A stretch of DNA of 37,843 nt from a virus. Under the pieces are notes generated by a model, which searched no databases, was not told the DNA's origin, and worked only from the letters and a program-made list of their open reading frames with translations. Shown piece by piece: positions 1,310 through 37,713 of this stretch (the stretch's first letter is position 1; every line of letters begins with the position of its first letter). A program made the position numbers and the translations under genes. The stretch is from positions 1 to 37,843 of IMG/VR virus record IMGVR_UViG_3300048928_000659; one strand, given 5' to 3'.

Positions 1310-1597
1310 TTATCTGGCGTCCACGAGGCGCTTCACGGCCGACAGCTTGAGGCGGCAGTCTTCTCCGGCCTTGGCGAGCTTCACCATGTACCTGGCGACG
1401 TCCTTTTGGGAAACCCAGACCGTTCCAGCCTCAGGCTCGGGAGAGCAGGACAGCAGACTTTTAGGAACCTCGACACGGCGTTCGACGATCTCCGTCACTG
1501 TAATGGTCTTGGTCGTAGTGCATCCGACGAGGAGCAAGAGCAGGCTGACGAAGACGGCCGCGTTCAAGGCTCTGAAATAGGGATCGGTCGGTCTCAT
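1310..1597 (-). CDS. Outer-membrane spanin-like lipoprotein (Rz1-like, 95 aa)
   Basis: Hydrophobic N-terminus (FVSLLLLLVGC) with a lipobox-type LVGC near residue 25, followed by a threonine-rich linker, as expected for a signal-peptidase-II lipoprotein. It starts inside the end of the preceding coiled-coil membrane gene (ATGA overlap 1594-1597), the usual arrangement of o-spanin with i-spanin. The pair would fuse inner and outer membranes in the last step of lysis. It is larger than the lambda Rz1 and lies after, not embedded in, its partner. Confidence 0.75.
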   Translation of the reverse strand: MRPTDPYFRALNAAVFVSLLLLLVGCTTTKTITVTEIVERRVEVPKSLLSCSPEPEAGTVWVSQKDVARYMVKLAKAGEDCRLKLSAVKRLVDAR

Positions 1598-1962
1598 TTC
1601 GGACCTCCGAACCTCGACGCCCGCAGCCGTTCGAGTACAGCGGCGACAGGACCGTCGTCCACCTCCGGAGCCGCCTCGATATCCGCCTCGGCGACCCGCG
1701 CTTGTTTCGTGATGACTTCCAGACCGGCCTGAAGGTGTTCGAGGGCTTCGATGGCTGCGCGCCGATCCTCATCGGCACGCTTCGCCGCCTCGGCATTCCG
1801 ATTGGAAATGCCCACTAGACGGGCGTTTTCAGCCTCTTGCTGAACAAGAGCGGCCTTAATTTCCAATAGCTCTGATGACATCGAAAAGTAGCGATAGGCG
1901 GCGAGACCGCCCGCGGTGGCGACCACGGTAATCAACCCGGCAATCAGATAGGCCTTAAACAT
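1594..1962 (-). CDS. Inner-membrane spanin-like protein (Rz-like, 122 aa)
   Basis: One N-terminal membrane anchor (about residues 5-24, LIAGLITVVATAGGLAAYRYF) followed by a long Ala/Glu-rich helical stretch likely to form a periplasmic coiled coil. Length, topology and its overlap with the following lipoprotein gene match an i-spanin. It overlaps the upstream holin-like gene by 8 bases, so the three are translationally coupled. Confidence 0.75.
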   Translation of the reverse strand: MFKAYLIAGLITVVATAGGLAAYRYFSMSSELLEIKAALVQQEAENARLVGISNRNAEAAKRADEDRRAAIEALEHLQAGLEVITKQARVAEADIEAAPEVDDGPVAAVLERLRASRFGGPK

Positions 1963-2209
1963 CGGGCTTTTCTCCCTTACGCCGGAGGTCGAGGAGGCCT
2001 TGGGCGATCAGGGATCGCATGTCGAGGTGGCCGACGCCCATATAAAGAACGAGAAGCGCAACGGCGACGCTGCCGACGACAGAGATGAGTTCGGCGAGAC
2101 CGGGATAGCCAACGTAGACCCCGAAAAACGCCAGTGCGTAGACGCCGATCAACGACCAGGCGGTCGCTCGTTTCGAAAATGTCCGTGTTGACTTGGATTT
2201 CTGGCTCAT
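1955..2209 (-). CDS. Putative holin (84 aa, two membrane segments)
   Basis: Short protein with two hydrophobic helices (about residues 18-38 and 41-58), a basic N-terminus and a charged C-terminus. It lies between the endolysin/HTH genes and the spanins. Position and topology support a class II-type holin; the sequence does not identify a specific holin family to me. It overlaps the spanin gene downstream and the 108-aa gene upstream (4-base ATGA type). Confidence 0.65.
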   Translation of the reverse strand: MSQKSKSTRTFSKRATAWSLIGVYALAFFGVYVGYPGLAELISVVGSVAVALLVLYMGVGHLDMRSLIAQGLLDLRRKGEKPDV

Positions 2210-2533: not shown

Positions 2534-3184
2534 TCACGCTGCTCCCTGGATGGCGGCGTGGAAGGCCTTGGCGTAGCGGGCAATATCGTCAGCGCGGTCC
2601 GTGGAGTTGATGATGCGGCGGGCATTGACCCAGTCAGTGGACCTCCCGAAGTAGTCGGAGAGCCGGTGGCCGGTGAAAACGCCGTCCCGCATGCCGATCA
2701 CTGCGATCTTGGCGGCGATTTCGGGCTTGAGGGCGTATTCCGGGAGGCGCTCGAGGTCGATCCCGAGCAGTTCCGAGAATTTGCGGTAGTTGTCGCGGCC
2801 GGTGATCTGAACGTAACCACGACCTCGGAACGTCCACCCGTCTCCAGAGGGCTCGGGACCGTTCCCCATGCGGCCGCCATAAGCGCGGTTGGCGATCCGT
2901 GACGGCTGTCGGGCGTAAGCCTTGGCATCGGTCCGCGTGAAATACCGTGGGAACGTCCTCAGCAGGCCCTCGGCGCTGTAACTCAGATTCTCGGAGATCG
3001 GCTCGAACGTCATCCCCGTTTCGATTGTGGGCGTGGCGAGGACATAGGCCACATGGCGAGCGTCGGCGACGCCGTATCGGTCGCAGGCGTCGAGCAGCGC
3101 TTCAATGCCGGAGACCTGTGAGAGTGAAAGTCGCCCGCCAAATACGGTGGTGCGGACGGAAGAGAAGAACTTTGCGCGGTCCAA
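2534..3184 (-). CDS. Endolysin, GH19 chitinase-like (216 aa)
   Basis: Peptidoglycan-degrading lysozyme of the GH19 type. Visible features: N-terminal DRAKFFSSV...LSQSQV-like opening typical of these endolysins, the catalytic-region pattern TPTIETG...ISEN with Glu55 and Glu65, and the GH19 signature FRGRGYVQITGRDNY. No signal peptide, so it needs the holin. I choose the TTG at 3184 because the family starts with M-DRAKFF; no ATG or GTG gives a matching N-terminus. The frame stays open further upstream, so an in-frame start before 3184 is possible. Confidence 0.85.
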   Translation of the reverse strand: MDRAKFFSSVRTTVFGGRLSLSQVSGIEALLDACDRYGVADARHVAYVLATPTIETGMTFEPISENLSYSAEGLLRTFPRYFTRTDAKAYARQPSRIANRAYGGRMGNGPEPSGDGWTFRGRGYVQITGRDNYRKFSELLGIDLERLPEYALKPEIAAKIAVIGMRDGVFTGHRLSDYFGRSTDWVNARRIINSTDRADDIARYAKAFHAAIQGAA

Positions 3185-3271
3185 GACCAGGTACTCTTGT
3201 GAATACCTGATTATTGGACGGCCGGCGAAAATGACATAGTGATTTTGCGAAGAATCATAGGGGTTTGCGGC
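3185..3271. promoter_or_regulatory. Divergent region between endolysin and AbiV-like gene
   Basis: Holds an imperfect 20-bp palindrome (AGGTACTC..GAATACCT, about 3190-3209) and a plausible plus-strand promoter: TTGGAC near 3214, then CATAGT 15 bases later. GGCCGGCGAAAAT near 3221 resembles the GCCGGCGGA elements at other gene junctions. An operator controlling the cargo gene is possible; boxes were judged by eye. Confidence 0.3.
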
Positions 3272-3871
3272 ATGACGGAACACGACAGGATATTTTTCGA
3301 GACAATCGAAAAAGCTATCGCATGGGGAGGCTCCATCGGCGGAACGGATATAGCCGATGCTTTTAACATTGCCGCTGATCATGTCGCCGTCCTACTGGAG
3401 GACGCTTATGCAAGTTATAAGCGCGGGTCATTTGGAACCTGCGTGTTCATTGCCATTTCCGCACTCGAAGAAACGGCCAAAGCGGAGCTTCTCGGGTATC
3501 GGGCACGCGGTGGAGATGGTCAGAAGAAGAAGGGTATCGACCCGATGCGATCCCATGCGGAAAAACACATAATGTCGATCCGTCCCACGACGTTTATGGG
3601 TCGCCTTCCAGGCATTCTCGGAGACGAGACATGTCAAAGGCTGATCGAGGAAGCGATGACCGGGAAGCTCAAGGAATTGCGTGAGATCGCGCTATACGTC
3701 CATGCCGACGAAAATGGCGTGCGCGCTCCGGCGAGCGAAGTCAGCAAGGAGCGAGCGCGGGAGATTTTACTGGTGGCTCTCGAGTCCGCAGATGATGTCC
3801 TCGTGGGCTATACCGCCCTCTCATTCGAGCTGGGCAAGCGGTTCGAAGAGCTTATCAAGGAAATCGCGTGA
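3272..3871 (+). CDS. AbiV-family abortive-infection protein (HEPN-like, 199 aa)
   Basis: Contains the hallmark ISALEETAKAELL (residues 62-74) and a following R..H..KH segment (RSHAEKH, 93-99) resembling the HEPN R-x(4-6)-H RNase motif. The overall helical character and about 200-residue length match AbiV-type proteins, known to block lactococcal phage development. AGGGG lies eight bases before the chosen ATG. It is inserted on the plus strand between two minus-strand phage genes with its own upstream region, the usual setting of a moron. Likely role: exclusion of competing phages or of prophage induction under stress. The family call is fairly sure, the target unknown. Confidence 0.7.
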   Translation: MTEHDRIFFETIEKAIAWGGSIGGTDIADAFNIAADHVAVLLEDAYASYKRGSFGTCVFIAISALEETAKAELLGYRARGGDGQKKKGIDPMRSHAEKHIMSIRPTTFMGRLPGILGDETCQRLIEEAMTGKLKELREIALYVHADENGVRAPASEVSKERAREILLVALESADDVLVGYTALSFELGKRFEELIKEIA

Positions 3872-3877
3872 CGACGA

Positions 3878-5503
3878 TCAACCGAGTGCACAGTACCTTC
3901 CGTCGTCTGACTGGATCAGCATAGCCCTGGTGCCATTGCAGTAACCGATGGAATGTCCAAAGGCCCAAGCCGTGGGTCCTTTGTTGTATCCCTGTTTCTT
4001 CCGTGCTGAGAGACCGCCCGTGTGAACATCCTCGTGGATGCTTGGGGCATGAGTGTGTTCAGTGGTCATCTTCCTGCCCATACGCGTAAATTGCCTGGGC
4101 GTTCCGCGCGCACCGCCGATTCCGATGTCGCCGTGGTGACCATAGTCGACGCCGTAGACGAGGTATGTGCCGCCGGAAGCGACAAATGGAACATCGTCGC
4201 GTAGTCCCGCCTTCCTCATGGCAAACTCGACAAGGTTGAAGTCTCGGTCTTTCTTGCGAATGGCATTGTGCCAAGCGGCGTTCATCTCATGCCAATAATA
4301 GGCATTCGCGGGATCGGTCTGCCCTTCCTTATTCTTGGTCCACCTGCAGATCGCGGCGTCGTGGTTTGATTCGACCACAACTGAAATGCACCAATCCCGA
4401 TGCATTTCGTTGATGAAGTGCGCGGCGTCCCGAACTTCGTCTTCGACGTTGTCCTTTCCGGAAACGTAGACTTCGGCCATTAGGTGCGGATCGTTGATGC
4501 TGTGATGGTTCCGACGCCGAAAATCGAGCGTGTCATGGTAGAAGCAAACCTCCGGCCGCAGTCGCTCGTAGATGCTGTCTGTGGTTACGACCTTCTTCCG
4601 GTCAACGCAGAAGCCGAAAGCGGTCCTGGCGACTACGGGATCGAGCTGTTCGTAGTGGATGTCGCCCCACGCTATCGCGCCGACGCGGCAGCCGTCATAG
4701 ACGATGCCGTCCTTCACGAAATGCGTTAGGTCCTGGAAAGAGCCGTCATCAGCGTTTGCGACCAGGTGACGGAAAAAGACCTCGCCGTCGACGTCGATTT
4801 CGACCAGTAGCGCGGCATATGTGTGTCGAGCGATGCTCTTGCGACCCGACGCACGAGGAGCATAGGAGGGGATTGTGCAGCACCCCGTCGACACCGCGAA
4901 TCGGGCTGGTTCATCTTGAGGTCTGGGGATCGACTGAAGAGCGACTCTTGCATGCGGGACGATGACGTGTTGTCCGCCATACGTCGTCATCCAGCCATTG
5001 AGTGGGTTTGCCGACGTGGGCAAGACGTTCGCATCGCCGATGAACATTATCCTGTCGTTTAGTACGACGCGTAATGGGCAGAGATATTCTCGAAGGGCGG
5101 GGTCGTATACCGCGGTCTGGGCGGCGTGATCCTCGAACAGCCCCTTTTGATACGTGAATGGTCCGACAAAAAATTGGGCTTTTATGGCGTCGCAGTATGC
5201 GAGCAGGTTGTCCACGAAAGGCTTGAAGATCAGGGTGTCGTCCTGTGCCGCACTGACGATGAAGCGATGTACTTTGCCGGGTACGAGATCGGCATCGATG
5301 ATATCAATGCTGGAAATCCGGGGCGGCTTGGGTTTCTCAGGCTTAGGAGGTTCCGCCGGCTGATTTCTGAGATACTCCAGAGCATACCTGGCTTGTTTCT
5401 CAGAACATCCAAGCCGTTCGGCAACTGCTCGACGACCGAGGTCTTGAATTTTCAGGCCCGTAATTTTCGATGCGCGGTCTGCGACCGTAGTGTTTTTATG
5501 CAT
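3878..5503 (-). CDS. T5 A1-like protein (HTH plus metallophosphoesterase-like core, 541 aa)
   Basis: The N-terminus (about 8-48) has a helix-turn-helix look and is followed by a Pro/Lys linker. The core carries the spaced metal-ligand motifs of calcineurin-like phosphoesterases as seen in phage T5 A1 relatives: WGDIHYEQLD (279-288), HDTLDF (323-328), ESNHD (378-382), and a late EHTHAP (482-487). In T5, A1 is a pre-early protein needed for host DNA degradation and completion of DNA entry. Start at 5503: the longer frame lacks a ribosome site, while GGGAGACATCGAAT precedes this ATG. The leader can hide that site in a GTCTCC/GGAGAC hairpin, as expected for a toxic product. The biochemical role is inferred. 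Confidence 0.7.
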   Translation of the reverse strand: MHKNTTVADRASKITGLKIQDLGRRAVAERLGCSEKQARYALEYLRNQPAEPPKPEKPKPPRISSIDIIDADLVPGKVHRFIVSAAQDDTLIFKPFVDNLLAYCDAIKAQFFVGPFTYQKGLFEDHAAQTAVYDPALREYLCPLRVVLNDRIMFIGDANVLPTSANPLNGWMTTYGGQHVIVPHARVALQSIPRPQDEPARFAVSTGCCTIPSYAPRASGRKSIARHTYAALLVEIDVDGEVFFRHLVANADDGSFQDLTHFVKDGIVYDGCRVGAIAWGDIHYEQLDPVVARTAFGFCVDRKKVVTTDSIYERLRPEVCFYHDTLDFRRRNHHSINDPHLMAEVYVSGKDNVEDEVRDAAHFINEMHRDWCISVVVESNHDAAICRWTKNKEGQTDPANAYYWHEMNAAWHNAIRKKDRDFNLVEFAMRKAGLRDDVPFVASGGTYLVYGVDYGHHGDIGIGGARGTPRQFTRMGRKMTTEHTHAPSIHEDVHTGGLSARKKQGYNKGPTAWAFGHSIGYCNGTRAMLIQSDDGRYCALG

Positions 5504-5570
5504 ATTCGATGTCTCCCGTGACATGGAGACCGTGGGTCGGCGATTTCGCCGATGCAAATTCCGCCGGCGA
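5504..5570 (-). promoter_or_regulatory. Leader B of the A1-like gene
   Basis: Gene-strand order: CGCCGGCGGA, TTTGCATCGG, a TCGGCGAAATCGCCGA hairpin, then GTCTCC-8nt-GGAGAC (5511-5516 with 5525-5530), which sequesters the ribosome site, then the ATG. It combines the palindrome element and the GCAT element found separately in other leaders. Confidence 0.6.
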
Positions 5571-5578
5571 GTTTGGCA

Positions 5579-5845
5579 TTAGCTTCCGATGTGCAGGGAT
5601 GATCTGACCCAGGCCCCGAGCACAGTGACAACGATCGCTGAGACTGTTCCGGCAATGGCGGCGATAGCCGACAAGACGCCGCCACGCTTGGCGTCAAGCT
5701 TTTCAAGTGCTTCGACGCGCGTCCGGATATCGGAGTGGATGGCGATATTGGCTTCGATTGTCGCCAACTTCGTCACGATTTCCATCTGGGTCTTCTGGAG
5801 TGCGGAGAGCTGGCTGAGGATGTAGGAATTGTCGGGCGTGGTCAT
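5579..5845 (-). CDS. Small membrane protein, XhlA-like layout (88 aa)
   Basis: N-terminal 50 residues form a coiled coil (heptad-like Leu/Ile pattern), then a charged LDAKRGG turn and one C-terminal membrane helix (about 56-80). This is the layout of XhlA-type phage haemolysin/holin accessory proteins and of tail-tip membrane-associated proteins. It lies directly after the tail hub genes and before the A1-like gene, some distance from the holin. The copy of the CTTGCA element lies 48 bases before its ATG. Confidence 0.55.
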   Translation of the reverse strand: MTTPDNSYILSQLSALQKTQMEIVTKLATIEANIAIHSDIRTRVEALEKLDAKRGGVLSAIAAIAGTVSAIVVTVLGAWVRSSLHIGS

Positions 5846-5916: not shown

Positions 5917-6132
5917 TTAAGGCGCGGGTGTCGGCGGCGTGTAGCTGATCTCCGTCGCTTCGATGCAGTAGGAACAATCAACGGGCGTCTGGCTGCCGAT
6001 GACCAGGCCGTCCGTCGATGCCGAGTGGCGGCCCCGGGCATCGTAGAAGGCACGCGCGGGCTGTCGGGCTGCCCACCGCTGGAGCCTGGCGTTGATCAGT
6101 TTCTGTGTGAGCTGGTATTGCGTGCTCATCAT
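5917..6132 (-). CDS. Hypothetical tail-region protein (71 aa)
   Basis: Not recognised. The start overlaps the stop of the tail hub gene (ATGATGA), with GGAG five bases upstream, so it is coupled to tail translation. Gln-rich N-terminus, two cysteines in the motif CSYC, proline-rich end. Probably a small tail or assembly factor. Confidence 0.55.
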   Translation of the reverse strand: MMSTQYQLTQKLINARLQRWAARQPARAFYDARGRHSASTDGLVIGSQTPVDCSYCIEATEISYTPPTPAP

Positions 6133-8003
6133 GGTTCTCCAAGGTCAGGAGCGATGTCGATGCCCTTCGGAATGTAGGTCGGTCGACACGTCACTGAAAC
6201 ACGACGGCGCAGCAAGTCCTCCTCCCGGAGTGTCGGGAAGCCGATGTGATGCTGCGTGGGCAGGCTGTTGATGGCGGCCATGGGATCGAAACCGCCGAAC
6301 GACGCCATGTTTGCCGCCGCCATTTGTTCGTCGGCGTCGTGGATAACTTCGTCGGCATAAGGGGCAAGGCCGGCGAGAGCGAGGGCGTCGACAGGTTCGG
6401 AGACACGTCCGTAATTGACGGTGTAGACGACGTCGCCTGCCGTCTGTTCGCCCACGCCCGGAACTGGAATGGACGAGCCGTCCCCGATCGGAGCGAGAAT
6501 TGTCACCCGACCGACACGACTATGTCCGTCGATCCGCAGCTCGATCGATGTGATCTTGCCGATCGCTTCGCCTCCGGGGATGAGCCGATGCTCCACGCGC
6601 GCAGTGTCGGCCGTCGTCATCGCCTTTGCCGTCGCCCACGGAATTTCAAAGCTGATCTCCGTCGCCCGTCCGCGCAAGCAGACCTGACGATCAAGGCGGC
6701 GAGTTGCATACCGGATCGCACGGACCCCTCGATCCGGCTCGGCAAATCGCGACGTCCGCATATCCTGGATCGCCGAGCGCTTAGGCGTCACCGCCCAGAG
6801 GACGACTTCGTCGTCACCCTGATCCCGCGAAGAGAACGGCTCCTGGGCATCGTGTTCCGTCACGCACACCCAACAACGGCTGGCGGCCTGCACACGATCG
6901 CCGACCAGATAGTGACGAACTTCCAGCGTGTCCGGGTCTTCGTATTCCCACTCCGGCGTGACGAGGTCCAGATTGAGCTGGCCGAGATTCAGCACTTCGA
7001 CTGTCTCGGTTTTCTCATCGCCGAGGACAGGCTGAACGGCAGCGGGCATGGAGATGTCGATAATCTCCTCGCGTGCCTGCTGATACTGGTATTTGGCCCG
7101 CCAGTTGTAGGACACTACGTGCGGACGGAGGATGAGGTAGCCGCCCGCGGCGTCGCCGTATTCCGACGAGTTGGCCTGTACCTTGAACGTTAGGCTGTGT
7201 GGAACGGAGGTCGCTTCGAAGCTCGCGAAAGACCAACCCGTGTCCGCGCCAATGCCGTCTCCTGGCTTAGGTATCCCCGAGAGAATGTCCTGATACGAAA
7301 AGCTCGTGAAGGTGCCGATGTGGTTGGATGCCTGTACATCCTCGGCTACCTGGGTCCAAGACGCAATCACGCGCAGCTTCGTGATCTTCTTCGGTGGTGT
7401 GGTCACCTTGAGAGACAACGATCCTTCCAAAATGTCGTTGACCTGATGTTCGACGACACCATTCGTCAGATGGACCAACTGCGGCACCAATGTCTTCCGA
7501 TCCCAGCGCCAAAGTTGACGCCGTGCGAGCAGCACAGTGGTCGGGTCTTCGGTGGCATCAGCGTCGAAGAACAGCGGATCATACATTTCCGCCGCCTCGC
7601 GCTCGGCGAGCGGAGCAACGGGATCGTAATCCACTTCCCCGACGCGCAGCACATTGGCCGCCGCCTGAAGGACGTCGTCCTCGTTGGGCGGAACGCACAG
7701 GAATTCCAGCGTCGCGTCCACAGCACCAAGGTTGGTCGGCAGACCTGTGAGCCGGCCGCGCGCTAGCTCTGCGGTTTCCCCGGACTCGGGATCGCGCTCG
7801 ACGAGAGCGGCATATCGACCAGGTTGGGTTGCGATTCCTGCGATGCCTGGATTGCGGATCGTCACAGTCATATACGGGACGATGAGGTCACCTTCTTCCC
7901 GCTCAACCACTGATCCCGAGAACGCTTCGAAAACCTCGGACATGTTGATCGCCCCGAGCTCGAGAACCTCATTCCAGGCCGTCAGCCACTTCAACGCGAT
8001 CAT
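6129..8003 (-). CDS. Tail hub / tip protein (624 aa)
   Basis: The large last gene of the tail block, following the tape measure and distal-tail genes, which in siphophages is the place of the hub/tip protein (analogous to lambda gpJ). Sequence is beta-rich with repeated Tyr/Trp/Val-rich segments; I cannot name a domain. Start at 8003: GGAGG seven bases upstream and a 4-base ATGA overlap with the preceding gene. It may also contribute to host recognition, as no separate long tail fibre is obvious in this block. Confidence 0.65.
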   Translation of the reverse strand: MIALKWLTAWNEVLELGAINMSEVFEAFSGSVVEREEGDLIVPYMTVTIRNPGIAGIATQPGRYAALVERDPESGETAELARGRLTGLPTNLGAVDATLEFLCVPPNEDDVLQAAANVLRVGEVDYDPVAPLAEREAAEMYDPLFFDADATEDPTTVLLARRQLWRWDRKTLVPQLVHLTNGVVEHQVNDILEGSLSLKVTTPPKKITKLRVIASWTQVAEDVQASNHIGTFTSFSYQDILSGIPKPGDGIGADTGWSFASFEATSVPHSLTFKVQANSSEYGDAAGGYLILRPHVVSYNWRAKYQYQQAREEIIDISMPAAVQPVLGDEKTETVEVLNLGQLNLDLVTPEWEYEDPDTLEVRHYLVGDRVQAASRCWVCVTEHDAQEPFSSRDQGDDEVVLWAVTPKRSAIQDMRTSRFAEPDRGVRAIRYATRRLDRQVCLRGRATEISFEIPWATAKAMTTADTARVEHRLIPGGEAIGKITSIELRIDGHSRVGRVTILAPIGDGSSIPVPGVGEQTAGDVVYTVNYGRVSEPVDALALAGLAPYADEVIHDADEQMAAANMASFGGFDPMAAINSLPTQHHIGFPTLREEDLLRRRVSVTCRPTYIPKGIDIAPDLGEP

Positions 8004-8545
8004 GCCGCACCTCCGACTTCTTCGGAGACCAGCTCCCAAGAGACCTCCGCACGGGACGCGCGCGTGTTGACCGACCACGGCTCGGTGACCATGAGTTCAA
8101 GGATCGGTCGGTAGTAGATTCGCACGGCCGTCGCAGCGGGGGCGGCAAGCGTCAGTACCTTGCCCGCAACAGTGAAAGGCACAGCATTGAAGGCCAAGTC
8201 ATAGACCCGGATGCTGCCCACGAACGGTGTCCGCTGAAGCGTGCGAGACGTGCCGCCAACGGCGACCATGTCGCCGAGTTCGGAAGGCGGGACGAGCTGG
8301 AACTCGGTTCCCGGCCACAGCCTCGACAGAGCGGGCGCACGGATTTCTCCTTCGCCAGAAGAGATGCGGACTTCGTATGAGCGGAACGCCGGGTCGGCCA
8401 GATTTAGGAGCCTCCCGTCCCAGGTGCGCCGCATGTCGGACGACATCGGAATTGGTTTCATGTCGACGGACAGGTCGAAGCCCGACTGATACCCGAGCGC
8501 GAGGTCGGTGCAGATGAGCGTCGAGGGCGAAATGTGATGGGTCAT
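8000..8545 (-). CDS. Distal tail-like protein (181 aa)
   Basis: Beta-rich protein encoded immediately after the tape measure and before the hub gene, the standard place of a distal tail protein. GGAGG precedes the ATG and overlaps the tape-measure stop region. Identity comes from position rather than a motif. Confidence 0.55.
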   Translation of the reverse strand: MTHHISPSTLICTDLALGYQSGFDLSVDMKPIPMSSDMRRTWDGRLLNLADPAFRSYEVRISSGEGEIRAPALSRLWPGTEFQLVPPSELGDMVAVGGTSRTLQRTPFVGSIRVYDLAFNAVPFTVAGKVLTLAAPAATAVRIYYRPILELMVTEPWSVNTRASRAEVSWELVSEEVGGAA

Positions 8546-19205: not shown

Positions 19206-21389
19206 CTACCAGATCACGCCACCTGGTCGGCGACGTGGCTTCTTCTTGATGACGGTCTGTTCCTGCACCGATCCGGGAATGGGCAGCGCCTTCGCCGCCA
19301 CCGGATTGCCGGAAGCCATCTTGCGTTTCTCTGCCGACGCCCGCTCGGCTTTGCATTCCGAGTGCGCCAGCACCATGTCCGGCACCAGGCCAGGGATTTC
19401 GAACTGCAGGGCGGGGATCGAAAGGTCCTGACCCTCGTAGCCGATCTCCCCAGTTTCGGGATCGTGCATGATGTCGGGTATTCCGGCGTTGCGGGCTGCA
19501 AGATTCAAATCACGCCAACGGGGACGCAGAGCGCGTAGACCTTCGAGGGCGGCATAGGCGTAGACGAGGCACATCCACTCCTCGTCGGCGCGCTCGCCCT
19601 TCTTGGGGTGCCAGTAATAGCCACCATTTGGCTGGAGAGTCCGCTGTTCACAAAGAAGCTTCGGGAAGTAGCTGTCGGGCATGGCGGCCGGAAACATGGC
19701 TGCGTCGTCACCCTCGGCGAGCAGCATCTCGGCGACGCGATCCTTGGCACTCTGAGAATCCACCGTGTACGAGAGCAGCTTCTTCTTCCCCTTGGTCTTC
19801 ACGTTAAAGCCAGACGGCCAGATGCTGACGAGACGCTTGCCCCTGATTTGGCTTGACCCTCGGACGGCGAAGACATTCATCTTGGCTTCGAACTTCCCTG
19901 CGAATATGCGGGTCTCGTCCGGGTGGTGGCCACCCATGTCCATGGCTGTCGCCTGGACGTACATCGCCGTTCCGTCGCGCTTGAGGTACGGCCGACGGAT
20001 GAAAAACTCATAGGCGGCGTCGGCATCGGGATCGCCCACTTCACCAGGTATAACCCAGTGCCCGATGACCCGCGGCTTACGCCGACGATTCCATCCGACG
20101 ACCGCGATTTCACGAGACGCCAGTTGTTCGAGGACGGTACCTTCCTTGTTCGTCTGGTCGTCGCCGCCGATAGTGATAACGACTACGTCGTCCGGGACCT
20201 CCGCCGGATACGGACGTCGCAAGGCTGAGACGCCGCCCTCGGCGATGCTCTGGGAGATGAACTCGTCCCACGGCTCCGCCATTTTGAAGTTGTAGAATTC
20301 CTTGAGCTTTTCGGGATCGTCCTGCGCGTTGAGCCATTCCTGCGCGAGAATCCGCCAAGCAGCTCCGGGTGCGGGAGACAGCCACGAGGGAATGTGGATG
20401 CCGACGTTGCCAGGAACGGTGGCCACCTCGGTCGCCTCATATTCCCCGGCGTCGATCATGTCGTCCTTGACGTCCTCGTCGATGCGGCAATGCTTGGGGC
20501 CGGCACAGCGGTAGTAGGCAGCCTCGACGCGGCCGTCCTTGTCGAGGTCCCAACGGAACCCATACTTCTCGTCGCCGGTAGTCCAGCGCAGTTCCTGACG
20601 GTGATTGCAATGTGGGCAATGGACCTGGAGACGCCTCTTGTCCGAGGTCTGCCATTCCTTCCAGACAATGGACAGGTGGCGCAGACCCGGCGTCGATCCG
20701 ACGTAAGTCTTCGAATCCACGAAGTCGGTGCCACGGTTGCGAAACTGGGCGAGCTTGTCGCCCTGACCGTTCTTCCCGGAGAGCCAACCGGAACGATCGA
20801 CCTCGTCGGCCATGTTCAGCCAGCTCGTGAAAGACTGAAGGTCATCCTCGTTGAAGGCAGCGCGGAAATAGGCACGGACACCATTGAGGAAGCGCTGTTC
20901 ATACCAGGTGTCCTGAGCCTTGCCGCGCTCAACCTCACGGACGATCTTCCTGAAGACCTCCATGTCCGTGTACATGTCGGCGATCTCGTCCTTCCAGAAG
21001 CGAGCGACGTCTCGCTTCGTGGGAAAGGCGACGGCGGCGTTCTTGGATAGATAGGCGACGACGTAGGCGTATATGGCCTTGAGCGCCTTGGAATATCCGA
21101 TCTGCACGCCCTTGAGGACGGTGACCTGTCTGACGGACGGATCGACAACGCACTCGGCCATGAGCCGCTGGTAGACCGTCAGCTTCATGTTGCCGGCACG
21201 GGACGTCTGAGTTTTGGGAATGGCGATGTTGTCGTAAATCCAGGCGACGGGTCCCTTGATCTCCGGCCACGCCAAATATTCGGAGCGATATTTATGGAGG
21301 GTGCGGGCGAACTCGTTCAGACCTTCCTGGAAGGTCATGCCCTCGACATAGGCGGCAACTTCATCGGCCAGGACAGCAGGTGCGATCAT
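19206..21389 (-). CDS. terL: Terminase large subunit, GpA family (727 aa)
   Basis: DNA-packaging ATPase/nuclease. The ATP site LKGVQIGYSKAL is the deviant Walker A of lambda gpA relatives (KSARVGYSK in lambda). A zinc-finger-like CPHCNH and a CAGPKHC pair follow near residue 260-300; the nuclease half has the ITIGGDDQ acidic strand. Lys/Arg-rich C-terminus, where gpA contacts the portal. Start at 21389 (ATG) has AGG seven bases upstream; a GTG two codons earlier is possible. Just after the small subunit stop. Confidence 0.9.
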   Translation of the reverse strand: MIAPAVLADEVAAYVEGMTFQEGLNEFARTLHKYRSEYLAWPEIKGPVAWIYDNIAIPKTQTSRAGNMKLTVYQRLMAECVVDPSVRQVTVLKGVQIGYSKALKAIYAYVVAYLSKNAAVAFPTKRDVARFWKDEIADMYTDMEVFRKIVREVERGKAQDTWYEQRFLNGVRAYFRAAFNEDDLQSFTSWLNMADEVDRSGWLSGKNGQGDKLAQFRNRGTDFVDSKTYVGSTPGLRHLSIVWKEWQTSDKRRLQVHCPHCNHRQELRWTTGDEKYGFRWDLDKDGRVEAAYYRCAGPKHCRIDEDVKDDMIDAGEYEATEVATVPGNVGIHIPSWLSPAPGAAWRILAQEWLNAQDDPEKLKEFYNFKMAEPWDEFISQSIAEGGVSALRRPYPAEVPDDVVVITIGGDDQTNKEGTVLEQLASREIAVVGWNRRRKPRVIGHWVIPGEVGDPDADAAYEFFIRRPYLKRDGTAMYVQATAMDMGGHHPDETRIFAGKFEAKMNVFAVRGSSQIRGKRLVSIWPSGFNVKTKGKKKLLSYTVDSQSAKDRVAEMLLAEGDDAAMFPAAMPDSYFPKLLCEQRTLQPNGGYYWHPKKGERADEEWMCLVYAYAALEGLRALRPRWRDLNLAARNAGIPDIMHDPETGEIGYEGQDLSIPALQFEIPGLVPDMVLAHSECKAERASAEKRKMASGNPVAAKALPIPGSVQEQTVIKKKPRRRPGGVIW

Positions 21390-21391
21390 GG

Positions 21392-22012
21392 TCACCTGCC
21401 TTCGGCAATCTTCTCGATCTCTTGATCAGCGGACAAGGCATTCAGCGTCTGACCGATCAACTCCATGGCAGCCTTGCGCACCTTCTCGGTATGCCTTGAA
21501 TCCACGCGCGCGGCGATGGCGTCAGGGATGCCCTGAAGGCGGAGGGATATTTCCGAATAGTCCTTACGGACCAGGTCGAGCATGTCATGTATACGAGCTA
21601 CCACTTTGGCGTTCTCGGCGAACTCCAGCTCGGAGGTGTACATCTGCGCGACGCCGCGGCGGCGCTTTGCCTCGTCTTCTGTTATGAGACCTTCCTTGGA
21701 AGTCCGCGCACTCACGTTTTCCGCAGCGCGCTCCTCGAGCCATCGCACAACTTCCCCGAGGTCGAGGACCCACGCGACGCCCCGATCCCGATCCGCCCTC
21801 TCGACGACCGGCATTCCCTGATCGAGATATTTCATGATGGTGTTGCGGTCGCGATTGATCAGAACCGCGCACTGTTTTAGCGAAACATGACGTGCTTTCG
21901 CCGCTTCGCGTTTCGACATCAAGGGTGGTGAATCGTCCGGGAGGGGTGTTGAATAATTCGCATCGTCACTGATGTCGTTCAACACGGGTTTCGATTTTGA
22001 TGGTCTCGCCAT
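21392..22012 (-). CDS. terS: Terminase small subunit, Nu1-like (206 aa)
   Basis: N-terminal winged-HTH-type region (SLKQCAVLINRDRNTIMKYL...) followed by a long helical dimerisation part, and directly upstream of the GpA-type large subunit. This is the Nu1 position; it should bind cos DNA nearby. Start at 22012 with GAGG three bases upstream. Confidence 0.75.
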   Translation of the reverse strand: MARPSKSKPVLNDISDDANYSTPLPDDSPPLMSKREAAKARHVSLKQCAVLINRDRNTIMKYLDQGMPVVERADRDRGVAWVLDLGEVVRWLEERAAENVSARTSKEGLITEDEAKRRRGVAQMYTSELEFAENAKVVARIHDMLDLVRKDYSEISLRLQGIPDAIAARVDSRHTEKVRKAAMELIGQTLNALSADQEIEKIAEGR

Positions 22013-26350: not shown

Positions 26351-26491
26351 TGGCAGCTGGACGAGCTAGCCGATGAAGGCAGGCCGGTTGAACCCAGAAT
26401 TTCGCCTCGCCCAGCATCCCTAAGATAGAATCCGTTGCATGATTCGCAACAAGAAACGGTGCGTTTTGCACCTTCGTGATGAGGCGTGAAA
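26351..26491 (+). other. Gap with small hairpin
   Basis: No gene seen. GGTGC/GCACC hairpin with a TTTT loop at 26458-26472 and TAGAAT near 26425 that could be a -10 box for the next gene. Confidence 0.3.
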
Positions 26492-27151
26492 ATGTGGGAA
26501 TGGCTCACGACCAAGGAAGGCAATATCGCGCTCGGGGCGATCCTCGGTGTCGGCGGTACGATTATCGCTCAAGCCACTTCAGGTTCCATCGGAACGGTGA
26601 AAGAACTTTGGTTCGCTCGAAGGAAGCGCCGTTGGGACGCTCGTCACTTGGCACTGCGTACGATCCTGGTGTTGGACGACTTCGTCGGGCAATGCTATGG
26701 CGCGGCGTTCGATAGTCCGGAATTCAATCCCCGCGACAACACAGAATTCGAGTTCAGAAATCCGACACCGAACCTGGTTATGCCGGATGACGCAGATTGG
26801 CGGTTACTCGAGCCGAAGCTGATGGAAGACGTCATGTGGTTGCCAAGCCGTTTTCAAAACGTGGAAGACGGCCTCAACTCACTCAACCGCTTTCCTCCTG
26901 ATTTCGACAATCTGTTCGAACACCGCGCGGAAGACTATGCCAAGCTCGGGATGCGCTCTCTCGATCTCATAGATCGGCTTTGCCGGGAGTATGGCATTCG
27001 AAAGCCCGAGCGCCCTGACTACTATGACCCCAGGGAGGGATTTCAGCGGAAGATCGATGAGATCGCGCTGTTCTGGAAGAAGAGGCAAGAAGCACATGCT
27101 CGGATTTTCTCCGACGTGCCGCCGCTGCCACCCGCGGTCGTGAAGCAGTGA
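26492..27151 (+). CDS. Hypothetical membrane-anchored protein (219 aa)
   Basis: N-terminal hydrophobic segment (about 11-30, NIALGAILGVGGTIIAQATSG) followed by a charged cytoplasmic helical domain. Not recognised. GAGG lies seven bases before the ATG at 26492. Third plus-strand cargo gene in a row after the nuclease and DUF3800 genes; each has its own ribosome site and gap. Confidence 0.65.
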   Translation: MWEWLTTKEGNIALGAILGVGGTIIAQATSGSIGTVKELWFARRKRRWDARHLALRTILVLDDFVGQCYGAAFDSPEFNPRDNTEFEFRNPTPNLVMPDDADWRLLEPKLMEDVMWLPSRFQNVEDGLNSLNRFPPDFDNLFEHRAEDYAKLGMRSLDLIDRLCREYGIRKPERPDYYDPREGFQRKIDEIALFWKKRQEAHARIFSDVPPLPPAVVKQ

Positions 27152-29531: not shown

Positions 29532-30488
29532 CTAGAAAGGTCTGTATGCGGTCTCTTGCCGCTGCCTGGCGGCGATCCTGTCTACGAGAGTAGTCTCGCG
29601 CGTCGGCCGGCGGAAATCTTCGATGACGGCCCGGGTGAGAGCCTGGTGCGTTGCAGACCAATAGGCGTTGATGTCGATCCATGCCTGCGGCAGCGTCATC
29701 GCGAAACCGCGCTCGGCGCGCAATTTTTCCCAGGACGGCTCCCGGGGTTCCATCTTCGACCACGACAGCGCCGCCGGCGACGGCGCACAGACGCCGAGCG
29801 GGATGTTTCGGTGGCGGCATACACGCATGATCTCAAGAGCGACGCGGGCTATATCGATCTCCATGGCGTCGAAGCTGAGAAGGTCCGCAAGGTGTTTGAC
29901 GCGGTAATCCGTATCGGGTTGCTGAAGGACGGCGACCCACTTTTCGGCGGCGGCCGCTTCGATCGGCTGCACGTGGGCGACGATGCCGGGTTGTTTGCTG
30001 ATCATAGACGGCAGTTCCTGGCGTGTGACGTTCTGTGGGAACGCGAACGGTCCCCGGCCGACAGTCATGTCGATGTGAGTGTTGCCTCGGATCGTGCCGC
30101 ACATCGCCTCGATCTTGATGCGGACGACGGGATCGCCGTGACCGACATCGATTTCCTCGATCTTCAGGCGCTTGATCTCGATGCCTTCGTTGCCGAGGAT
30201 GGCGGCAATGCACTGCATACCTTGCCGAAGCTCCGCCTCAGTGTAGTGTCGGACGGCGACGATGTCGGCGTCCTCAGTCGGACGCATGCCCTGCGGGAAA
30301 AGCAAACCGCCTTTGACCATGATCGGCCCTGGGCCGAAGCCGACCGGCCAATGCGCTAGGATGCGCTCGGCAACGTAGCGCGACGCCGCCTTGTTTACGT
30401 CCAGTTTCTGGTTGCGGCAGTTCTGTTTGAGTCGGTCGCCGAGCGCGGCCGCTGTGGCTGTGGCTGTGAATGTCACGAAGTCTTGCAT
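29532..30488 (-). CDS. AbiEii-like nucleotidyltransferase (318 aa)
   Basis: Matches the AbiEii/type IV toxin nucleotidyltransferase layout: MVKGG (57-61), RPTEDAD (69-75; two metal-binding Asp), THIDMTVG, the AEKWVAVLQQ helix and YRVKHLADL near the usual R-x-KD-x-x-D site (His instead of Asp). AbiEii toxins block growth of infected cells, usually with AbiEi upstream; none is visible here. Start at 30488 follows GGGAGACATCGAC, sequestered by GTCTCC. It may be a defence toxin held in check at translation, or a domesticated enzyme. Confidence 0.7.
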   Translation of the reverse strand: MQDFVTFTATATAAALGDRLKQNCRNQKLDVNKAASRYVAERILAHWPVGFGPGPIMVKGGLLFPQGMRPTEDADIVAVRHYTEAELRQGMQCIAAILGNEGIEIKRLKIEEIDVGHGDPVVRIKIEAMCGTIRGNTHIDMTVGRGPFAFPQNVTRQELPSMISKQPGIVAHVQPIEAAAAEKWVAVLQQPDTDYRVKHLADLLSFDAMEIDIARVALEIMRVCRHRNIPLGVCAPSPAALSWSKMEPREPSWEKLRAERGFAMTLPQAWIDINAYWSATHQALTRAVIEDFRRPTRETTLVDRIAARQRQETAYRPF

Positions 30489-30541
30489 GTCGATGTCTCC
30501 CAGTGCGGAGACGGTCGCCTTCGGCGATGCAAGTGACAAAA
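30489..30541 (-). promoter_or_regulatory. Leader E: CTTGCAT element and ribosome-site hairpin
   Basis: TTTGTCACTTGCAT (complement of 30527-30540), then GTCTCC-GCACTG-GGAGAC (30495-30500 with 30507-30512) before CATCGACATG. A TCGCC/GGCGA hairpin lies between. Same plan as leader C. Confidence 0.65.
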
Positions 30542-30548
30542 ACGGCGT

Positions 30549-31373
30549 TTACGGAGATGGCCTGCTCGACTGTACCCGGGCAAGCTCCCGAGCGAACGCC
30601 GCCGACGTCATGTGCGTCTGAGTCACGCGGCTGATGACATCGTTGTACCGGAACAAGGGGCGGTATTCGGCGCGGTCTGCGAACGCCAGTAGCAGTCGGG
30701 GGTTGTTTCGACCCTGCGGGATGACCGTGCGGACGCCGTTCCTTCTCGGGCTGACAGCCGCGGATCGTTCCGGGCGTTGCCAATAGCCACGAACACCGTC
30801 GATGGTGCCGAAAAACGATCCTCCAGCATTCTTCGAGCGCTTCACCCACTTCATCGTCGCTAGACGTCGGGCAATCCGTTGCTTCTCGGTTCGCGTCGAT
30901 GCTGCGGCGAGCTGCGCACGCGCCGCTTTGCGTCTCGCTGCCAATGTCGCGCGTGATTTTTTCTCTTTCCTCGCCGCGCTGGCGGTCCTTTTGAGAGTCC
31001 CTCTCGAAATGCCGCCGAACGCATCCGTGTTCGCGGCCTCCGCGCCGACCGGCACGTCGAAGCGGGTCGCACCAGGGTCTCCCTTCCGCCTGGTTCCTCC
31101 CTCGATCTGATAATGGAGCACGCCAGCCTGCTTTGTCTTTGCCCTGAGTTCGGCGAACATGTTCGCGCCGTCGGATGGCTTGGCCTTTGTGAAAAGCCAG
31201 GCGTCTTTCGTCGACCAGTCGCGCGGACGGTCGAACACCCGGCGCGACTCGGCGATCGTCTCCGCCCTAGCCGCGAACACCGTCGAGTTCAGGGTACCAG
31301 CAGCAGCCTTGATGATGTCGGCCTCGAGTGCCTGAAAAGTCCGGGTCAAATTAGTGAGGACTTCAAAACTCAT
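30549..31373 (-). CDS. Putative virion/tail-completion-like protein (274 aa)
   Basis: Basic protein (long Lys/Arg/Ala helix in the middle) with an N-terminus (EVLTNLTRTFQALEADIIKAAAGTLN) like minor tail or gpZ-like proteins. The pair with the 218-aa gene overlaps as TGATG, with GGAG upstream. Displaced about 8 kb from the virion block. Assignment is tentative. Confidence 0.45.
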   Translation of the reverse strand: MSFEVLTNLTRTFQALEADIIKAAAGTLNSTVFAARAETIAESRRVFDRPRDWSTKDAWLFTKAKPSDGANMFAELRAKTKQAGVLHYQIEGGTRRKGDPGATRFDVPVGAEAANTDAFGGISRGTLKRTASAARKEKKSRATLAARRKAARAQLAAASTRTEKQRIARRLATMKWVKRSKNAGGSFFGTIDGVRGYWQRPERSAAVSPRRNGVRTVIPQGRNNPRLLLAFADRAEYRPLFRYNDVISRVTQTHMTSAAFARELARVQSSRPSP

Positions 31374-32029
31374 CAATGGTTCTCCAACCACTCAACGCGG
31401 CCTTCGAGATCGACGATCCGCGCCTCGAGCTCGCGGATGATGCTCAGTAGCGATTTCGTCGAGGCCTCGGGATCGCCGTCGAAACCAAACGGTCCGTACA
31501 TGGCTCGGAGAATACTCCCGTGCGCATCGATAAAGTCCCGCCAATCCGTGCCTGCGCCTGTATTGAACATCAGTCCTAGTATCGTCTGGCCGCGTGCGCG
31601 GATGTCTACGAGGTTTGCAGGCGTGCTGAAGACCGTGCCGGCAAGAGAATATTCGTCCTGGTTGCCGCCCGGAGGTGCCACGAAGTTCCAGCTAGTCGAG
31701 GTGCCAATCACCTGATGCCAGAAGGGTCGATCTTTGACTTGATCGAGGTAGTCGGCATCGCCGTAGGTCACGGTCAATATGGATTTCGGCTCGGTTGAAC
31801 TGGGCGGCTGTAGGCGGAACCAGAAGTCACCGTCATCCTGGTCTGCGGTGACGTCACCAGGCGTATGGGTGCCGCCGCGCATCGTCATGTCGTACAGACG
31901 GTTCAGCGCCTCGGTGAGAGCTGTGAGGTCCGCGCCTTCCCCGGGGGCGATGTTGCGAACCTTTTCTTCGAGAAGGTTGAGTCGAGCGGCGACGGGCGCA
32001 GGTTCAGCGGACTTATTGTAAATGGCCAT
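31373..32029 (-). CDS. Putative tail fibre/receptor-binding-type protein (218 aa)
   Basis: Short coiled coils at both ends (LNLLEEKVRNI and ELEARIVDLEGRVEWLEN) around a Gly/Thr/Asn-rich centre, the look of a trimeric fibre or fibre-tip protein. No enzyme motif. Gene follows CCGCCGG..GCATGG upstream sequence and precedes the tail-completion-like gene. Location with cargo genes suggests a replaceable adsorption module. Confidence 0.45.
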   Translation of the reverse strand: MAIYNKSAEPAPVAARLNLLEEKVRNIAPGEGADLTALTEALNRLYDMTMRGGTHTPGDVTADQDDGDFWFRLQPPSSTEPKSILTVTYGDADYLDQVKDRPFWHQVIGTSTSWNFVAPPGGNQDEYSLAGTVFSTPANLVDIRARGQTILGLMFNTGAGTDWRDFIDAHGSILRAMYGPFGFDGDPEASTKSLLSIIRELEARIVDLEGRVEWLENH

Positions 32030-33152: not shown

Positions 33153-33647
33153 CGCGATCTAAAAAGGGGCTGGCGCACTAGAAGGCTCCGCCGCTCCGCC
33201 CGAAATGGACAACCGGCTCCAGGGAAAATAGGAATCTTGAAACCCTTTGATTGGACAACCGAACCCCACAAAACGAGACTGCTATCCAAACTGCTCCGCG
33301 CATCTGATGACACGGACGCCTCCCGCTTGCGCCAAGCTTCGCCGACGGGCAGACTTACAAAAGACGAGCGAAGCGACCCGTTTCTTAAAACGGCGAAGCC
33401 CATAGAAACCCGATGATTAAAATCATGAACCCGGTTTCAATATTCGCTATCGACGGCTTCCAGTAAACATACATCAGCGCCCAAGGAATGCAGGGTACAG
33501 TTGACTGACAATATACCACCCATCTCACTTGCCGAAGAATCGTGACAGGGCCGATAAAATCATAGCAATAGTAAAAAATCGACGTTGATAGTCTTGTGCC
33601 AGGCTCCGCCGACACGCACACTTATGACTGTAAGGGAGACATACGTC
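33153..33647 (+). other. Gene-poor, AT-richer region upstream of rep: candidate origin
   Basis: About 500 bases with no convincing gene. Contains a CCGTTT/AAACGG hairpin, a nested GAAACC/GGTTTC plus ATGATT/AATCAT hairpin (33405-33438), TTGACT near 33499 and AT-rich runs (33540-33580). Two related 28-base repeats (33331, 33598). Expected place for a replication origin and rep control. Confidence 0.45.
33331..33625 (+). repeat. Two related 28-base direct repeats flanking the rep promoter region
   Basis: 33331-33358 and 33598-33625 match at 22 of 28 positions (GCCArGCTyCGCCGAC...). They could be iteron-like Rep sites or remnants of a duplication. Confidence 0.4.
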
Positions 33648-35093
33648 GTGCATCAGCCAGCTAATACATCGCTCGAAGAAATGGAAATCGCATCGAAGCG
33701 CAAGCCTCGTCGACACAAGATGCACGGCAAGCGGGGATCGGTGTTCGTCCACGAGCGTGAAGATGGTTCCGAGAAAGGTTACGTTTGGAAGACTACGGGT
33801 GACGATATCATCCGGGGATATCAGCGCGGCGGTCTCAAGTGCGGCAATCTCTCGGCGGAAGCGGTCTATACGAACGAATCCTCGTCGCCGCGGGTCGAAA
33901 TTCCCCGTGTCGTCATCGAAACAATGTCTGTTGAATCAAAGCAGTTGCATGCGGGAGACATCGCGGTGTTCTGGCGGATGTTCGCCGAAGCCCGCAAGCA
34001 AGGCATCTCACGCGACGCGCATACGATCAAGTTGAGCGACGTCATCAGATACCTGGGACTCAACAGCCTTCATCGTGCGAAGCAAGCTATCACGCGCCTA
34101 GCTGGCGCGGCGATGACGCTTCGGCTCAACCAGCCAGGCGCGCGTGGCACGATCCGAATGCCAATGATTGAACTCCTGCACGACACCGACGACTTCGCGG
34201 CACTCCGCGGCTACAACGAAGTGTTTTTCCGTCTGCCTTCGGCCCTCAAGCTGGCCGTAAAGGAGAGCCGAGACTACGCCTGGGTGGACCTCAACGCGCT
34301 GTCCCGGTTCGAATCCAAGTTCACGTTCCCTCTCTATCTCAAGCTCTGCCTGGAAGCGGGCAAACATCGCTTGTATCGCTCCGTGCCGGAGATGACGAAG
34401 TCTGAATTCCGGGCTTTCGTCGGAATGCCCGAGAAGACCCAGACGTCGGTGCTCGACAAGACACTGCAACTCGTCTGCAACGATCTGTCTTCGATCTCCG
34501 GCGTCCGCCGCCGTTTCCCGATTTCCATCGCGTTCGAGGAAGGGAAGCTCCAGATCGTCGTTGGAAGCGCCGCGAAGAAGCTCCGTGATGTGAAGCCCGC
34601 GTGGATCGCGCCGGAGATGGCTGCAAAGCAGACCGAAGAGGTCTACGCGATGCCTGCGGAAAAGCGAAAGCTCTACCCGTCATTGACGCGGTTCCGACAG
34701 GCGGAGACTGCCATCGGAGCGCCTGCGTATCGGATTTTTGGTCTGTGGTCAGCCGACATTCACGGCGCGACGTCTTACCCCGACGACTATATCGTCGGTA
34801 TGACCGGCCGCGACTTCATGAACCTGATCGCGAAGGTCGGTGCGGACGATGTCATGGAGTTCTGGCTCGACAAGCGAGACTTCGAAGTCCTTGGAGCTGC
34901 TGGAAAATGGATGGATGTCGAGGTCGTAGAGCACACCCCGGTCGTGAATATCCCGATCGCCGCATCCAGGCCAAAGGCACCCAAGGTCGCCCTCGACGAG
35001 ATAGTGAGTCGGGCAAGAGCGCGCTACGATGATGAGCGTCTGCCCGAACCCGCTGTATTTGCCTACGTGGACGACGAGGACATTCCGTTCTGA
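33648..35093 (+). CDS. Plasmid-type replication initiator (winged-helix Rep, 481 aa)
   Basis: The central part (about 100-290) has the double winged-helix pattern of theta-plasmid Rep proteins: DIAVFWRMFAEARKQ...IKLSDVIRYLGL, FPLYLKLCLEAGKH and EFRAFVGMPE. Basic N-terminus. Start taken as GTG at 33648: GGGAGACATACGTC precedes it with the spacing used by the phage leaders, while upstream ATGs lack a site. Role: origin opening and plasmid-state maintenance. Exact Rep family not certain. Confidence 0.75.
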   Translation: MHQPANTSLEEMEIASKRKPRRHKMHGKRGSVFVHEREDGSEKGYVWKTTGDDIIRGYQRGGLKCGNLSAEAVYTNESSSPRVEIPRVVIETMSVESKQLHAGDIAVFWRMFAEARKQGISRDAHTIKLSDVIRYLGLNSLHRAKQAITRLAGAAMTLRLNQPGARGTIRMPMIELLHDTDDFAALRGYNEVFFRLPSALKLAVKESRDYAWVDLNALSRFESKFTFPLYLKLCLEAGKHRLYRSVPEMTKSEFRAFVGMPEKTQTSVLDKTLQLVCNDLSSISGVRRRFPISIAFEEGKLQIVVGSAAKKLRDVKPAWIAPEMAAKQTEEVYAMPAEKRKLYPSLTRFRQAETAIGAPAYRIFGLWSADIHGATSYPDDYIVGMTGRDFMNLIAKVGADDVMEFWLDKRDFEVLGAAGKWMDVEVVEHTPVVNIPIAASRPKAPKVALDEIVSRARARYDDERLPEPAVFAYVDDEDIPF

Positions 35094-37150: not shown

Positions 37151-37152
37151 TC

Positions 37153-37713
37153 ATGACCTTCGTCAAAAAATTCTACATCTCCGACACCCACTTCCTTCAC
37201 GAGCGTCTGCTGGGCATGCAGCCGCGTGCTTTCGCTTCGATCGACGAACACGACGACGCGATCGTCGAGCGCTGGAATGGGGTCGTTGGCGACGAGGACA
37301 TCGTATATCACCTTGGGGACTTCGCATTCTCGCTCAAGCAGAATGCGGATCGTGTCCGGGCGATCTTCAACCGACTGAATGGCCGAAAGCACCTGGTTAT
37401 CGGGAATCACGACGTCGATAAGAGGGGTAATCTGCATTCGGCGTTGGCATCGCTCGACTGGGCTGCTCGCCCGGAACACGCGATGCGAACCCGCGATGGC
37501 GGTCACGACGTCTGGCTGGCTCACTATGCCGCTCGGACGTGGCCGTGTAGCGGTTACGGCAGCATCCACTTTTTCGGGCATTCCCACGGCAAGCTTCCCG
37601 GCTACGGCCGCTCGCGCGATGTCGGCGTCGACATGCCGGATGTCGCCTTCACGCCCCGTACTTTTGGGGAACTGACCAAGGATATGGAGCTGAACGATGC
37701 GTTTGGAAAATGA
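37153..37713 (+). CDS. Small metallophosphoesterase (186 aa)
   Basis: Calcineurin-like phosphoesterase motifs in order: ISDTHFLH (D-x-H), YHLGDF (GD), VIGNHD (GNHD), WLAHY and FGHSHG (GHxH). Full-length, single domain, similar in size to small phage phosphodiesterases. Likely hydrolyses a nucleotide or phosphodiester; substrate not predictable. Start at 37153 (ATG) two bases after the protease stop; a GTG at 37147 would overlap. Confidence 0.85.
   Translation: MTFVKKFYISDTHFLHERLLGMQPRAFASIDEHDDAIVERWNGVVGDEDIVYHLGDFAFSLKQNADRVRAIFNRLNGRKHLVIGNHDVDKRGNLHSALASLDWAARPEHAMRTRDGGHDVWLAHYAARTWPCSGYGSIHFFGHSHGKLPGYGRSRDVGVDMPDVAFTPRTFGELTKDMELNDAFGK

Follow-up and report, generated by a model that had tools for sequence, protein, structure and literature searches.

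What does a gene of the T5 A1 type, known as a takeover factor of lytic phages, do among the late genes of a temperate phage? The question is raised by a gene in the IMG/VR virus record IMGVR_UViG_3300048928_000659; the window analyzed here is the entire record of 37,843 bases. An initial annotation had described the gene as a T5 A1-like takeover protein in a phage-plasmid. The open reading frame (ORF) was found at the coordinates given there, intact and free of frameshifts, and lies on the minus strand, which had been left unstated. It starts with ATG at 5503, ends with the last codon at 3881 and a stop codon at 3878-3880, and encodes 541 amino acids (aa).

3878..5503, minus strand: A1-family gene (ORF and translation, PHROG_1745, ligands, AlphaFold2 model, fold matches)

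In profile searches the window protein matched PHROG_1745, "DNA transfer protein" (8.3e-150, aa 46-533). The same profile is matched by the T5-type A1, represented here by the protein from Escherichia phage T5_ev212 (1.6e-244), and by the RcCronus, phiCbK and plasmid relatives of A1. With the T5-type A1 as query, the window protein showed 35% identity across 469 aa (E 4e-80), so that the two proteins correspond along nearly their whole length (approximately aa 80-539), whereas the N-terminal stretch of about 70 aa could not be aligned. Relatives of the window protein were detected with tblastn in 1125 phage and four plasmid records. With the window protein as query, no sequence entry of Pfam, NCBIfam or the PDB scored above the cut-off, and the family was assigned by PHROGs and structure only; a PADLOC scan assigned A1 to no defence family. 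Judged by its sequence, the window protein is a member of the T5 A1 family, as annotated initially; it was not placed in another family, and its metal ligands are not lost. Close A1 pairs have nonsynonymous to synonymous substitution ratios (dN/dS) of 0.03-0.15 where synonymous change is unsaturated, which means purifying selection.

The four motifs quoted initially (GD-IH, HDTLD, SNHD and EHTH) are present far beyond chance: GDIH (D281, H283), HDTLD (D324, D327), SNHD (N380, H381) and EHTH (H483, H485). A further ligand, H457, was absent from that list. The metallophosphoesterase motif order DxH, D, NH, H, HxH is found as D281xH283, D324, N380 H381, H457 and H483xH485. Among 76 diverse relatives, H283, D324, N380, H381, H457 and H485 are present in every protein, H483 in 74 and D281 in 72, and the T5-type A1 has the same eight ligands. 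One A1 homolog (L047:9632-12442) carries an in-frame intein-like insert right behind its catalytic GHVH motif; inteins are typically located in functional motifs.

The AlphaFold2 model of the window protein has a mean predicted local distance difference test score (pLDDT) of 93.5 and a predicted template modelling score (pTM) of 0.85. Its domains are arranged as follows.

aa 7-46: helix-turn-helix (HTH)
aa 47-64: Pro/Lys-rich linker
aa 65-270: metallophosphoesterase-like domain without the catalytic set
aa 272-541: C-terminal metallophosphoesterase domain

Using Foldseek alone, the full model gave no match in the PDB at E 0.001; matches were obtained by VIA re-alignment. Residues 272-535 matched the exonuclease of PolD DP1 (Z 13.1, 199 residues, 3.1 A), LpxH (11.9), Mre11 (10.7) and SbcD (10.2), although the Pfam metallophosphoesterase sequence models scored below the cut-off. 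The model confidently predicts that the C-terminal domain has a metallophosphoesterase fold with a complete two-metal nuclease-type site; the match to solved members and the eight intact ligands in the predicted structure agree with the metallophosphoesterase type proposed initially. The C-terminal domain has the fold of the 3'-5' exonuclease of PolD DP1 and of the Mre11/SbcD nucleases, but identity is only about 10-14%, and no known Rad50/SbcC or DP2 partner was noted in the window, where partners were not searched systematically.

Modelled alone (pLDDT 93.7), aa 62-272 had Vps29 as best match (Z 9.5 over 146 residues at 3.3 A), above a stated background of Z 7-8; the other listed matches are metallophosphoesterase-type folds and polymerase B subunits. 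We infer that aa 65-270 form a second, non-catalytic metallophosphoesterase-like domain. This assignment comes from the structure only, because hhalign comparison of the N-terminal and C-terminal halves of A1, run as a test for internal duplication, gave no sequence signal. The N-terminus was modelled as three helices (7-17, 24-31 and 35-46; pLDDT about 95) of the HTH type, in line with the HTH-like N-terminus noted before. Across relatives, sequence conservation is poor in the first 70-80 residues, although several of the proteins look HTH-like there.

The structural genes of the window run on the minus strand from the terminase (19206-21395) to the spanins (1310-1962). Gene content and synteny bear out that A1 sits between a tail-region gene and the lysis genes.

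6129..8078, minus strand: tail-region protein, neighbour of the A1 block and anchor for the synteny test
5579..5845, minus strand: 88-aa protein with one transmembrane segment, directly upstream of A1 (ORF; 97% identical in L006)
2534..3382, minus strand: GH19-type endolysin (phrog_181, 2e-61; match begins at residue 67)
1955..2209, minus strand: small membrane protein of the lysis cassette, holin candidate (position, sequence, synteny)
1594..1962, minus strand: Rz-like inner spanin (phrog_739, 0.0019)
1310..1597, minus strand: Rz1-like outer spanin with lipobox LLVGC (sequence, synteny)

Since the PHROG match begins only at residue 67, the real start of the endolysin probably lies inside the annotated ORF.

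IMG/VR was searched with the tail protein at 6129 and not with A1, to avoid circularity, which yielded 21 loci, 19 of them with sufficient flank. An A1 homolog was found downstream on the same strand in 19/19 of these informative loci, with recognisable lysis or spanin genes next in most. Five of these A1 proteins are only 28-30% identical to that of the window. A1 is thus a core gene at a fixed place in the late tail-to-lysis block of a temperate alphaproteobacterial phage group. The endolysins downstream of A1 in the relatives are, as read from sequence, of several unrelated types (GH19, amidase, muramidase, GH108-like), while A1 stays. Outside the main group of the window, an endolysin match was present within 3 kb of A1 in 23 of 59 loci, some of which are near-duplicates; the T5-type loci and most large-phage loci have no endolysin match within 3 kb.

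In the A1 tree the window protein falls into a clade of late-operon A1s (Shimodaira-Hasegawa-like approximate likelihood ratio test, SH-aLRT, 97) far from the T5-type A1. RcCronus, the plasmid pair and a divergent set (L142, L143 and L145) all fall outside this clade. Because the tree places these three elsewhere, it suggests, tentatively, that the tail/lysis position is old or was acquired repeatedly; this reading of the tree is limited by long branches (L155 and the L142 set). The divergent lineage (L142:14609-15979, L143:13062-14435, L145:14084-15457) occupies the same late locus and has a very long branch.

The temperate setting is established by the sister of the window protein in the A1 tree (64% identity), which is encoded in a 336-kb contig of Allorhizobium borbori. 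The prophage there is bordered by tRNA-Lys(ttt) on one side and by a 536-aa tyrosine integrase beside a lexA-like gene on the other, and an 18-bp repeat from the anticodon arm of the tRNA-Lys gene adjoins the integrase. This attL/attR pair identifies the sister phage as an integrated prophage of approximately 48 kb; the phage group is therefore temperate, and the window represents a temperate phage of soil-type alphaproteobacteria. In the window itself no integrase was detected and the att repeat of the prophage was absent. The window opens with an ATG and closes at a stop codon, and a search for an exact terminal repeat found none; it thus looks cut at gene borders and may be an incomplete genome.

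Temperate phages with A1 had been sequenced earlier, and the implied confinement of the gene to lytic T5-like phages is outdated: RcCronus, RcRhea and RcSaxon are listed as temperate, with gene 22 called "no known function" (PMC8601537), and the RcCronus record annotates "T5 A1-like". RcCronus (NC_042049), a small temperate siphovirus of Rhodobacter, resembles the window in carrying its A1-family gene (gp22) at the end of the tail block, and its genome also has plasmid-type RepA and ParA. It differs in that its A1 belongs to another clade, the endolysin lies at the opposite end of the structural block, an SSB gene lies downstream and RepA is of the RPA family. No homologs of RcCronus RepA and ParA were found in the window, which has an initiator of another type.

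33585..35093, plus strand: Rep3-like (winged-helix) replication initiator homolog (39-40% identity to a protein of L159 that matches PF01051 Rep3_N above the cut-off)

Homologs of this protein are present in 10 of 18 relatives, and several of them match PF01051. The Allorhizobium borbori prophage has a Rep3-like gene (39%), too, as well as the small phosphoesterase gene of the window (54%). The plasmid-type initiator thus belongs to the phage group. The initial term phage-plasmid is right as to the initiator, but the chromosomally integrated sister has the same kind of gene, so that its presence does not make the window a plasmid, and the phage-plasmid status of the window is unproven.

T5 A1 binds RNA polymerase, and degradation of host DNA, second-step transfer and pre-early shut-off all depend on it (PMC8541194; PMC13250531). 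The T5 gene is pre-early, lies in the terminal repeat together with A2 and Dmp, and belongs to an obligately lytic phage. In contrast, the window gene has a late/lysis position in a temperate phage, and neither A2 or Dmp nor a terminal repeat was found in the window. We consider its most likely function, to which we would give an even chance, to be that of a late, DNA-directed nuclease of the metallophosphoesterase type, or of the catalytic component of such a nuclease, which acts in host takeover and is silent in lysogeny. The HTH would contact DNA, the N-terminal metallophosphoesterase-like domain would serve as a scaffold without catalysis, and cleavage of phosphodiester bonds with two metal ions would fall to the C-terminal domain. 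As A1 appears to be read along with its structural and lysis neighbours, the lysogen would keep it off and its production would begin only after induction. It would then degrade the host chromosome, stop host gene expression and release nucleotides, comparable to the pre-early role of T5 A1. The late block is the usual location of genes kept off in lysogens, and this location fits a destroyer of host DNA, since such genes must be off there. The intein-like insert directly behind the GHxH motif of one relative also counts for a functional active site.

Several observations weigh against such a function. LpxH-type matches score close to the nucleases, so the fold alone does not fix the substrate, and in the divergent L142/L143/L145 lineage Q replaces D281 of motif I. 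Homologs of the T5 partners A2 and Dmp were searched for in the window and not found. The late timing of A1 is read from gene order. By analogy with T5, where A1 binds RNA polymerase and is required in second-step DNA transfer, DNA breakdown might be indirect.

The alternative that survives best is a late Mre11/SbcD-like nuclease that trims or debranches replication or recombination intermediates of the phage before packaging and has no role in host takeover. The fold nearest to DNA repair and proofreading exonucleases, an HTH available for DNA contact and a late position among structural genes, at the time of concatemer packaging, would all suit this. We nevertheless regard it as unlikely, because A1 lies at the lysis end away from the terminase, in T5 it is host DNA that A1 affects, and no SbcC/Rad50-like partner was noted beside A1, although partners were not searched systematically.

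Alternatively, A1 could be a regulator that binds host RNA polymerase and shifts late transcription, with the metallophosphoesterase site being secondary. Support for this comes from the N-terminal HTH and from work on the family (PMC8541194). A relative, gp126 of the giant Caulobacter siphophage phiCbK, has the highest identity (41%) among the phage matches listed and is proposed to alter expression via RNA polymerase (PMC3556154; PMC8541194); phiCbK differs from the window in being lytic and in having the gene near the DNA polymerase. What makes this explanation more doubtful still is that few residues of the family are conserved as well as the metal ligands and that a transcription switch would be unusual at a late position.

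A role in the virion or in ejection, in which A1 is produced late, packaged and then injected to complete DNA entry and early takeover as the counterpart of the T5 second-step transfer, would account for the location of A1 among tail genes, for its place within the structural block of DshS-R5C and for the T5 name "DNA transfer protein". T5 A1, however, is synthesized after first-step transfer and not brought in, and no virion signal was seen, so that this role is very improbable. Superinfection exclusion or plasmid copy control, both raised initially and compatible with the HTH domain and with the Rep3-like initiator elsewhere in the genome, is not supported and is highly improbable for A1, which is co-directional within the late block, lacks a promoter-like site upstream on its own strand and is core in all anchor loci instead of sporadic, while the closest prophage is chromosomal and the neighbouring convergent AbiV gene is a typical exclusion gene.

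3239..3871, plus strand: AbiV-family HEPN gene that converges on A1, with about 7 bp between the 3' ends (PF18728, 8e-17; PADLOC AbiV, 4.5e-61; HEPN motif R148-x6-H155)

This gene is the better candidate for exclusion. L006 and L012 have it in the corresponding position (91% and 82% identical), whereas it is absent in L011 and other genes take its place in L014 and L022. The region between A1 and the endolysin appears to be an accessory/defence hot spot. A1 itself is 58% identical to the window protein in L006 (L006:9947-11626), where the flanking genes are 69-97% identical; the L006 A1 is 91% identical to that of L011, though other L011 genes are distant from those of the window. Since the L006 A1 resembles that of L011 while its flanks resemble those of the window, A1 alleles seem to be exchanged between phages.

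The initial annotation had also placed A1 under a sequestered ribosome site, and the hairpin exists.

5503..5530, minus strand: Shine-Dalgarno stretch GGGAGAC inside the 6-bp hairpin GTCTCC-ATGTCACG-GGAGAC (loop 8 nt), directly upstream of the A1 start codon (sequence and folding)

It is nothing special, however: mean accessibility of the stretch is 0.33, within the range of 0.19-0.97 found for 17 other window genes, and five of those have lower values. The hairpin is also present in L006 and L011 and in an altered version in L012; it was looked for in L015, L016 and L019 and is not there. A scan for promoters and terminators around A1 gave counts approximately equal to those of shuffled sequence.

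Elsewhere in the window, an AbiEii-type nucleotidyltransferase gene (29532-30539, minus strand; PF08843; PADLOC AbiEii, 4e-25), possibly the type IV toxin of a defence pair, adjoins a minor tail-like gene (30549-31391). The gene at 35294-37150 (plus strand) encodes an AAA ATPase joined to a divergent M41 peptidase domain of the FtsH type, which in PADLOC is similar to IetA ATPases; immediately after it comes the gene for a small calcineurin-like phosphoesterase (phrog_547, 37147-37713). The gene at 26486-27151 (plus strand) matches the PADLOC candidate defence family PDC-S67 (2.5e-37).

Taken as a whole, the initial observation is real, correctly named and partly known before. Newly added are a structural assignment in which the active site is named, the core late status of A1 in a temperate group and the att evidence from the prophage. 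A literature search joining phage T5, metallophosphoesterase and host DNA found no paper in a limited collection. In T5 infection the host DNA is not destroyed unless A1 is produced, and no nuclease activity has been reported for A1 (PMC8541194). T5 A1 has been unexplained for decades; the conserved two-metal site of the DP1/Mre11 type names the residues to mutate, and the predicted active site is directly testable, in T5 as well. The temperate relatives offer a clean setting for this, an inducible prophage with A1 as a core late gene. They also show that prophages stably carry a gene familiar as a takeover factor of lytic phages when it lies beside the lysis genes.

A broader view, which we put forward with considerable reserve and hold to be rather doubtful, is that A1 is found widely in temperate and mid-sized phages as a late nuclease, linked to lysis and directed at the host chromosome, built from an HTH, a non-catalytic metallophosphoesterase-like and an active metallophosphoesterase domain, and that T5-like phages shifted it to the pre-early phase. 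If this view is true, late placement in temperate phages would make a lethal destroyer of host DNA compatible with lysogeny.
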